Source: Bdellovibrio bacteriovorus (GTDB taxonomy: Bacteria > Bdellovibrionota > Bdellovibrionia > Bdellovibrionales > Bdellovibrionaceae). Taken from it: a stretch of DNA of 64,000 nt. The stretch covers positions 999,384-1,063,383 of the forward strand of contig NZ_LUKD01000001.1 in assembly GCF_001592745.1 (NCBI RefSeq). The letters are read 5' to 3'. Both the position numbers and the translations under genes were made by a program. A model generated the notes under the pieces. It was given only the letters and a program-made list of their open reading frames with translations. It made no database searches and was not told the DNA's origin. The first letter of the stretch is position 1. Every line of letters starts with the position of its first letter. This document shows, one piece after another, positions 42,082 through 44,269 of this stretch.

Positions 42082-42915
42082 ATGGAAATGCTAACTATGC
42101 AAACAACTCCCTCAACCCAAATCGTCAATGTCGGCGGATATGATATCGGCGGACCACAGTTCACTGTGATCGCTGGTCCTTGCTCTATCGAAAGCTACGA
42201 GCAATTCATGGAAACCGCAAAAGGCGTGAAGTCTTCTGGCGCTCACATTCTTCGTGGCGGGATCTGGAAAATGCGCACGTCTTCAAAAGCCTTCCAAGGT
42301 TTGGGTTCTTCATCCTTCGATTTCATCAAAGCTGTTTGCAAAGAGACAAACATGAGCCTGATTTCTGAAGTCACAGATGCTCGTCAAATCGAAGAGATCT
42401 ATGACATCGTAGAATGCTTCCAAGTCGGCTCTCGCAACATGCACAACTACTCTTTGCTTAAAGAGCTAGGCATGCAGAAAAAGCCGGTGATGTTGAAACG
42501 TGGTTTCGCGGCTTTGATCGAAGAGTGGGTGAAAGCTGCTGAATACATCACAAACGGTGGCAACCCGAACGTCATCCTTTGCGAACGCGGTATCCGTACT
42601 TTCGAAACAGCGACTCGCAACACGCTGGATATTAATGCGGTGGCTTTCGCGAAAAGAAACACACATCTGCCTGTGATCGTCGATCCTTCTCACGCTGTCG
42701 GCATTCGCGCTCTTGTGCCGGATTTGGCTTATGCAGCGGCGGCAGTGGGAGCTGACGGTATCATCGTTGAAGTACATCCTCGCCCGGCAGAAGCTCTTTC
42801 TGACGGCATGCAAGCTCTGACTTTGGATGATTTCAAACACATGATGACCAAGATGGATAAAATCTTGAAAGCCGTCGACAGACCTCTTCACAAAGTAGAG
42901 CTTTATGCAAACTAA
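42082..42915 (+). CDS. aroF: 3-deoxy-7-phosphoheptulonate (DAHP) synthase, KDO8PS-like type
   Basis: 277 residues of the short I-beta type without an ACT or mutase domain. Motifs: [66 protein letters not shown]. It joins PEP and erythrose 4-phosphate, the first shikimate step, and so feeds the aro genes 4 kb away. Without a regulatory domain, feedback control must lie elsewhere. It overlaps menG by 11 nt. Confidence 0.94.
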
Positions 42916-43615
42916 GCATTCTCCAAATCCAGAAGTGATTCGCAGCATGTTCTCTAAAGTCGCAGCGAACTACGACAAAGGGAACAACGTTTTGTCGATG
43001 GGCATTCACCACTTGTGGAGAAAAAAATTAGTTAAGTATAGCGGCGCTAAAGCTGGCGATAAAGTTCTAGACTGCGCCACGGGCACGGGCGATCTAGCTA
43101 TCGAATTCAAAAAAACCGTAGGCACAGGCGACGTCGTAGGAACAGACTTCTGCGCGGAAATGTTAATCCCTGCTCCAGGTAAAGCCAAAGAACGCGGCCT
43201 AGAAATCAAATTCGAACAAGCCGACGTCACTCAACTTCAATACGCCGACAATTCTTTTGATATCAGCAGCATCTCGTTCGGCATCCGCAATGTAGGCGAC
43301 CCAGTAAAAGGCCTGAAAGAAATGGCTAGAGTAGTAAAACCCGGCGGCCAAGTGATGGTCCTAGAATTCGGCCAAGTAAATCTGCCTATCTTCGGCGCGA
43401 TCTACAATTTCTACTCGCAAAACATCCTACCAAAAATCGGCGGCCTAGTAACAGGCCAAGGCGAAGCCTACGAGTATCTACAAAAATCCTCAGCCGCTTT
43501 CCCCTGCCGCGAAGGCTTCCTAGATTTAATGAAAGAAACAAACTCTTTCGAAAAAATGGAATACATCAGCCTGACCGGCGGAATAGCCTACATCTACAAA
43601 GGCACCGTAAAATAA
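42905..43615 (+). CDS. menG: Demethylmenaquinone methyltransferase MenG/UbiE
   Basis: 236 residues, SAM-dependent methyltransferase with FSKVAANYDKGNNVLSMGIH, LDCATGTGDLAIEFK, DNSFDISSISFGIRNV and the family's GGIAYIYKGTVK ending. It methylates the ring in the last step of menaquinone synthesis. Cotranscribed with aroF. From about 43240 onward the codon use shifts to many CTA and AAA, a mild oddity. Confidence 0.94.
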   Translation: MQTKHSPNPEVIRSMFSKVAANYDKGNNVLSMGIHHLWRKKLVKYSGAKAGDKVLDCATGTGDLAIEFKKTVGTGDVVGTDFCAEMLIPAPGKAKERGLEIKFEQADVTQLQYADNSFDISSISFGIRNVGDPVKGLKEMARVVKPGGQVMVLEFGQVNLPIFGAIYNFYSQNILPKIGGLVTGQGEAYEYLQKSSAAFPCREGFLDLMKETNSFEKMEYISLTGGIAYIYKGTVK

Positions 43616-43627
43616 AAAGTTTTAATG

Positions 43628-43660
43628 AAAGCACCGACTGAAACACGGTGCTTTTTTATT
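43628..43660 (+). terminator. menG terminator
   Basis: 9-bp stem AAAGCACCG/CGGTGCTTT followed by TTTTATTT on the plus strand. Confidence 0.87.
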
Positions 43661-43739
43661 TCGACGACGTGATGAAATTTCTCCGCATACTTACTCATCT
43701 AAATTTCACTGAACGAAGTTGGCCCTAAGCAACAGCACA

Positions 43740-43903
43740 GATTTGCGCTGGGAAGGGAGTCCTTTGAAATGACTCCGAAGTGAAGGGCCTTCGGTGGCGC
43801 CACGATGGCGCGAACCGAGGCGAAGCCTCGGCACCGACCGAGCCGGGACGGCGTGCCCGAACGAAGCGAGCCATTTCAAAGGACTCCCTTCCCAGCGCAA
43901 ATC
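43740..43903. repeat. 164-nt element with perfect 32-bp terminal inverted repeats
   Basis: Bases 43740-43771 and 43872-43903 are exact reverse complements over 32 bp (arms run GATTTGCGCTGGG ... TTTGAAATG). The 100-nt core is GC-rich and folds into several short hairpins: CCGAAG/CTTCGG, GCGCCA/TGGCGC, CCGAGGC/GCCTCGG and GGCAC/GTGCC. It lies between the convergent menG and a small lipoprotein gene. Candidates are a palindromic MITE or REP-like element, or a structured RNA. Overlapping open frames here are compositional artefacts. No target duplication was seen. Confidence 0.75.
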
Positions 43904-43925
43904 CGTCGCTCGAAGCGAAACCAAT

Positions 43926-44168
43926 CTAAGGTCGAAGTGATTGTTCAGAGGAAGCAAGAAGACGAAGAGGCTCAACACGAACCCCGATATGAGGAGCCCG
44001 CCCCTCAAGACTAAGAAGCTCGTCATAAAAAGCACGAACCTCAAGTCGTGTTGGAATCACCATTTCAGGTTCTGGTGGCGTCGGATCCGGAACATTCTTC
44101 TTCGTCGGACATCCCCAGATGCCCAATCCAAGCGTGCCAGTAATAAGAAGAATGAGTGCGAGTTTCAT
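43926..44168 (-). CDS. Small lipoprotein
   Basis: 80 residues. Lipoprotein signal peptide MKLALILLITGTLGLGIWGC (lipid Cys at 20), then a Pro-rich linker (VPDPTPPEPE) and a short polar tail. GGGGG lies about 12 nt before the ATG. The C-terminus ends 23 nt from the inverted-repeat element, so it could be shortened by that element. Function unknown. Confidence 0.5.
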   Translation of the reverse strand: MKLALILLITGTLGLGIWGCPTKKNVPDPTPPEPEMVIPTRLEVRAFYDELLSLEGRAPHIGVRVEPLRLLASSEQSLRP

Positions 44169-44229
44169 ACATCCATTTTCCCCCGGTTCATTTGCCGGAG
44201 GAACTTGTATTCGTGCAGAAACCCTAAGA

Positions 44230-44269
44230 ACATCCCCGTTTATAAATACATCGTAATAAACAGGGATGT
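44230..44269 (-). terminator. Inverted repeat downstream of menB
   Basis: Arms ACATCCCcGTTTAT and ATAAACaGGGATGT (13 of 14 pair) with a 12-nt spacer, 25 nt after the menB stop. There is no clear T-run, so it could be a terminator, an RNA-stabilising stem or an operator for the lipoprotein gene. Confidence 0.35.

Follow-up and report, generated by a model that had tools for sequence, protein, structure and literature searches.

The hairpin at 43740-43903 of a 64-kb stretch of Bdellovibrio bacteriovorus DNA (hereafter the window) is probably a solo member of a family of intergenic DNA hairpins specific to Bdellovibrio; in one clade of IS1-like insertion sequences (IS), relatives of these hairpins make up the tail. 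This hairpin element represents a previously undescribed, dispersed and genus-restricted family, a variant of the intergenic palindromic repeats of bacteria; our literature search for repeats in Bdellovibrio or for hairpin tails in IS1 found no paper.

Anatomy and copies of the element

Comparison of the arms in the window confirmed the perfect inverted repeat that an earlier note on this DNA had described, with 43740-43771 and 43872-43903 being exact reverse complements over 32 nt. When mismatches were tolerated, the arms lengthened to 39 nt with 95% identity, giving a left (5') arm at 43737-43775 (perfect part GATTTGCGCTGGGAAGGGAGTCCTTTGAAATG) and a right (3') arm at 43868-43906, both read on the + strand like the other parts of the element given below. 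A scan of the 64-kb window revealed no further perfect inverted repeat of at least 20 nt with arms within 1 kb. The arm sequence is particular to the window copy, and a search of its own genome with the arm returned no second match.

Motif counts over the copies placed CGNAG (mostly CGAAG) on both sides of the fold at the inner stem end, forming a conserved CGNAG/CGNAG internal loop; in the window, the left CGAAG lies at 43776-43780 and the right at 43862-43866. Between them is the conserved head (43785-43858), defined by covariation and folding, which has a cloverleaf-like architecture of three hairpins and two enclosing stems. The enclosing stems are GGGCC/GTGCCC, within the same interval, and 43791-43796/43832-43837, and the hairpins are located at 43797-43811 (loop ACGAT), 43815-43831 (loop GAA) and 43842-43852 (loop GGGAC). 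These five covariation-backed helices bear out the earlier suggestion of at least four smaller stems in the core, and its high GC content relative to the flanks was also evident (71% versus 45-47%, with 46% for the window). Folding with RNA parameters gave z scores against dinucleotide shuffles of -10.9 for the + strand and -11.5 for the - strand, and folding with DNA parameters gave -11.5 against shuffles.

Sequence comparison showed that the outer right end (CGTCGCTCGAAGCGA, 43904-43918, + strand) is common to several other copies and that the outer left end (CAACAGCACA, 43730-43739, + strand) is partly so (..CAGCACAGATTTG). Upstream, a ubiE/menG-type methyltransferase gene (42905-43615, + strand; Pfam PF01209) ends ahead of the element. 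Downstream is an 80-aa putative lipoprotein ORF (43926-44168, - strand), for which we found no Pfam match; its stop codon and the right end of the element are approximately 20 nt apart. At the same locus in the sister genome G001, the right outer end is kept and the remainder of the hairpin is gone. The G001 interval orthologous to window 43615-43890 (G001:C1:157500-159900, L193) contains a different sequence, about 1.7 kb long, that includes an ORF. Also in the window, 3' of an enoyl-CoA hydratase-like gene, is a short near-perfect inverted repeat (44229-44269, ACATCCCCGTTTATa..TAATAAACAGGGATGT) that is conserved in G001 and G009 and resembles a terminator or operator.

The search for further copies that the earlier note had proposed was productive both in this genome and among its relatives. 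BLAST placed the element at 20 sites in its own genome, and alignment of the copies revealed a core of about 90 nt common to all, with a stem that is not. A covariance model trained on 54 cores identified 23 copies in this genome and between 2 and 30 copies per genome in 22 of 24 Bdellovibrio genomes, with 14 model hits in B. bacteriovorus HD100. Outside the genus but within the class, it matched only 4 of 120 genomes, with at most five matches per genome and a best E value of 1.9e-11. A search of phage records gave no match, and plasmid records gave three weak core matches only. Because the copies are many and conserved, a chance palindrome produced by local duplication, the refuting case named in the earlier note, can be rejected.

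As judged with a simple ORF caller, the copies are intergenic, and 26 of the 66 classified copies lie between convergent genes and two between divergent genes. Their orientation relative to genes was not consistent. Being intergenic, palindromic, dispersed, rarely found between divergent genes and paired in a preferred orientation, they are similar to REP/BIME elements and to REPINs of the GTAG and CGTC super-families (PMC3733652). The REP/BIME-like reading offered earlier nevertheless failed in its RAYT sense, and movement of such an element by a RAYT tyrosine transposase is barely credible. Y1 transposase genes do occur in most genomes examined, including two in this genome, and the palindromes are intergenic, but this reading is contradicted by the 16 RAYT-type loci that we examined, none of which has a core copy. 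Y1 genes are also present in genomes that lack the element, and G008 carries copies without a Y1 match. In addition, REP stems are short (5-13 bp), conserved and marked by a GTAG or CGTC tag (PMC3733652), whereas the Bdellovibrio hairpin lacks the GTAG tag, shows no link to RAYT genes and carries a conserved head of several hairpins on a copy-specific stem of about 30 bp.

In each of the ten pairs of neighbouring copies less than 3 kb apart, the left ends point at each other (-+, head-to-head), and the 140-645 bp that separate the copies are unrelated in sequence and mostly non-coding; the places are L061, L067, L081, L102, L112, L202, L238 and L239. We asked whether such pairs might be elements bounded by an IS end on either side and rejected the idea, as the outer ends did not match in the six pairs inspected.

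Arms at one locus evolve in concert

We compared stem arms within and between 83 copies from ten genomes. The median alignment score was 58 for arms of the same copy, compared to 12 for arms of different copies and 12 after shuffling. Only 13 of 6806 between-copy comparisons scored as high as the within-copy median, and the top scorers were mostly orthologous copies. Each stem is thus copy-specific in sequence and matched to itself.

Orthologous arms were compared in 16 cases, 14 of them between this genome and its sister G001 and two between G002 and G006, the last of which we take to be B. bacteriovorus HD100. Across these comparisons, 390 stem pairs were unchanged, 35 had changed on one side and 69 had changed on both, the two-sided count being inflated by several false pairs in the partly misaligned L067/L048, without which the conclusion is the same. 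A single copy, L065, in which the left arm alone differs, accounted for 14 of the 35 one-sided changes. At the observed flank divergence of 8.7%, independent mutation would be expected to give 78 one-sided changes and 3.7 two-sided ones. Some orthologous stems were identical; others had undergone near-complete two-sided rewriting with the flanks still alignable (L064/L050, L069/L049, L060/L040 and L070/L173), and in L071/L183 a 2-nt deletion was matched in both arms. These data show that the arms at one locus evolve in concert. At L068/L046, the head type had switched at the same locus with the arms unchanged, which suggests exchange between copies.

Paired multi-base changes that pass through no wobble intermediate, together with indels matched in both arms, are also features of quasipalindrome correction, in which template switching creates and repairs perfect stems and homogenisation of arms is established (PMC8794818, PMC8604942). 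Those studies concern RNA genes and yeast inverted repeats, whereas here a whole repeat family is involved, at many orthologous loci. Each element comprises a conserved cloverleaf-like head on a stem of about 30 bp whose sequence is free and whose pairing is maintained. We propose that one arm is recopied from the other, most likely through template switching during replication or through repair within the extruded hairpin, and that through such recopying the stem at each locus drifts in concert. The head may be kept by selection, by exchange between copies, or by both. The dozens of orthologous stems available here provide a natural record of arm matching, a process otherwise studied with reporters or through scattered examples.

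Covariation of the head and the folded form

In the conserved head, 18 of 23 pairs had changed on both sides, with 187 double-changed cells, a value as high as which was reached in none of 500 shuffles. Pairing was retained in 98.3% of cells, and the 1226 pair cells included a single G-U and no A-C. As a control, the SRP RNA of the same genomes contained 84 G-U among 658 cells (13%). Compensatory evolution in RNA is commonly thought to proceed via G-U, and arm-to-arm copying in DNA needs no such intermediate. The covariation of the head is therefore shown to be of the DNA type rather than the RNA type. More generally, strong covariation is possible without RNA function, and wobble content can tell the two cases apart. 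Since the stems are free in sequence yet paired, their arms change in step and the head pairs covary almost without wobble, the paired state is kept at the DNA level.

The structured RNA that the earlier note had offered as an option is disfavoured by this near absence of G-U, and the element is probably not one. It is very unlikely that the copies are transcribed as a structured RNA family, with the head as a functional RNA and the long stem as a scaffold shaped by compensatory mutation. Such a family would account for the very stable fold, the significant covariation and the copy that closely precedes the SRP RNA gene in each of four species, but not for the wobble deficit or the inconsistent orientation relative to genes. 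A search of Rfam gave no match at the gathering score and a single match far below threshold. When the eight HD100 attack-phase sRNAs listed in PMC3627812 were compared with the known HD100 copies, with G006 taken as HD100, there was no overlap.

Two further features bear on the fold. The loops of the second head hairpin are GAA, AAA, GCA or GTA across copies. In DNA, PyGNAPu motifs give rise to hairpins of very high stability and to tandem sheared G-A internal loops. As such motifs are possible in RNA too, the CGNAG and GNA-type loop motifs lend a DNA fold support but not proof. Read on the element's strand (+ in the window), arm mismatches were purine-purine in 68 cases and pyrimidine-pyrimidine in 10, and this excess, together with CGNAG/CGNAG at the top of the stem, indicates that the + strand is the one that folds.

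We suggest that the + strand hairpin probably acts as folded DNA, either as a cruciform or as a single strand, for the IS or a host protein. Only tentatively, and with rather less than even confidence, do we put forward a fuller reading of the family as folded DNA, in which a protein would read the head and the stem would serve as a sequence-free spacer. Copying from arm to arm would continually rewrite this spacer at each locus and leave every copy in a genome with a self-matching stem of its own. If folded DNA is the working form, insertion sequences and a well-studied predatory genus would have gained a structured DNA part of a new kind.

Insertion-sequence tails and long-lived loci

The link to insertion sequences came from G013, in which three hairpin copies have long flanks in common. 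The corresponding IS unit is 1.23 kb long, is bounded by a 12-bp perfect inverted repeat (TAAACTGATCCA/TGGATCAGTTTA) and codes for a 290-aa transposase that matches the NCBIfam transpos_IS1 profile with E = 2e-11, below the curated cut-off. Within the unit, the hairpin follows the transposase stop codon and precedes the right end, and internally deleted derivatives (L244:7453-8683, L245 and L246) retain the tail hairpin and that end. Among 20 homologous transposase loci compared across the genus, one clade (support 1.0) had hairpin arms downstream of the transposase in all six members, with a decayed core in G034; the other 14 had no hairpin, and short ends or simple stems were found there. 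A core HMM matched the IS-borne hairpins of G013 and G010 with E values of 1e-11 to 1e-14 and those of G014 and G011 more weakly, and gave no match to that of G034.

Transposases of the hairpin units match the IS1 family profile (NCBIfam NF033558) with E values of 3e-9 to 2e-14 and, as in that family, lie between short inverted ends. They differ from it in scoring 37-54 against a curated cut-off of 100 bits and in using a single frame of about 290 aa, and one clade adds the hairpin tail of about 170 nt. Head and stem layout are alike in solo and IS-borne copies, and the two represent one type of structure. This genome has two related transposases, both without a hairpin; the hairpin and similar inner ends are found on IS1-like units in other species. 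No transposase remnant was detected beside the solo copies tested, and the IS terminal repeat was absent from the solo copies inspected. Descent of the solo copies, including that in the window, from IS tails or from a shared origin is the most likely interpretation.

These results also refine the idea of a non-autonomous mobile element. The element is dispersed and probably mobile, given its 23 copies and its IS-borne relatives with terminal inverted repeats, but the 32-bp repeat is not a MITE terminal inverted repeat, because its sequence is not common to the copies. The family does resemble MITEs in being small, non-autonomous and related to an IS-encoded transposase. An ordinary MITE, possessing terminal repeats of its own and mobilised by a resident transposase, would fit the dispersed, intergenic copies, the outer ends common to several of them and the internal-deletion derivatives in G013. 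We nonetheless regard this as unlikely, since the long inverted repeat has an internal position and a sequence that differs between copies, and the solo copies examined have no common terminal inverted repeat. We found no precise insertion, clean empty site or target duplication, relatives showing partial remnants or rearranged sites instead.

Several loci have been occupied for a long time. A copy lies ahead of pilM in G000, G001, G002 and G006; G009 and G016 have half-deleted versions of it. Four species have another copy in front of the SRP RNA gene, in the same orientation as the gene and some 75 bp away from it (G006:C1:3606857-3606942, G002:C1:3824306-3824391, G030:C1:209579-209664 and G016:C1:1301672-1301757), and the G016 copy shows matched arm changes. 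Inspection of flanks indicated that a head-to-head pair of G000 and G001 apparently occupies the same locus in G007, with arms that are unrelated but self-matching. Such persistence, with the head conserved, suggests selection, but exchange between copies could also play a part.

The right arm of the pilM copy overlaps a promoter that is also present in species without the element, so some arms may derive from flanking DNA instead of an IS. Extended to the whole family, with arms arising as inverted copies of native flanks when the head inserts (an inverted target duplication), this explanation would also suit the locus-specific arms. As a general account it is quite unlikely: young G013 copies have arm sequence in common, indicating that arms travel with the element, and in many copies the arms are enclosed by conserved outer ends.

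Occupation of the same loci in distant species (pilM, the SRP RNA gene and the L061/L102 pair) and the preference for convergent over divergent neighbours could instead reflect a bidirectional terminator or insulator between genes, under selection and with no present mobile role. To this we assign a minor, though real, chance. No U-run follows the stem, avoidance of promoters is also seen in other intergenic repeats, and this reading accounts neither for the elaborate head and its conservation nor for the copies borne by IS. For the DNA hairpin family that we favour, a boundary downstream of genes may be a side role.

In G013, a second dispersed repeat of about 105-126 bp occurs near some hairpin copies (L247:7116-7219, L248:10327-10452 and L249:8186-8311).
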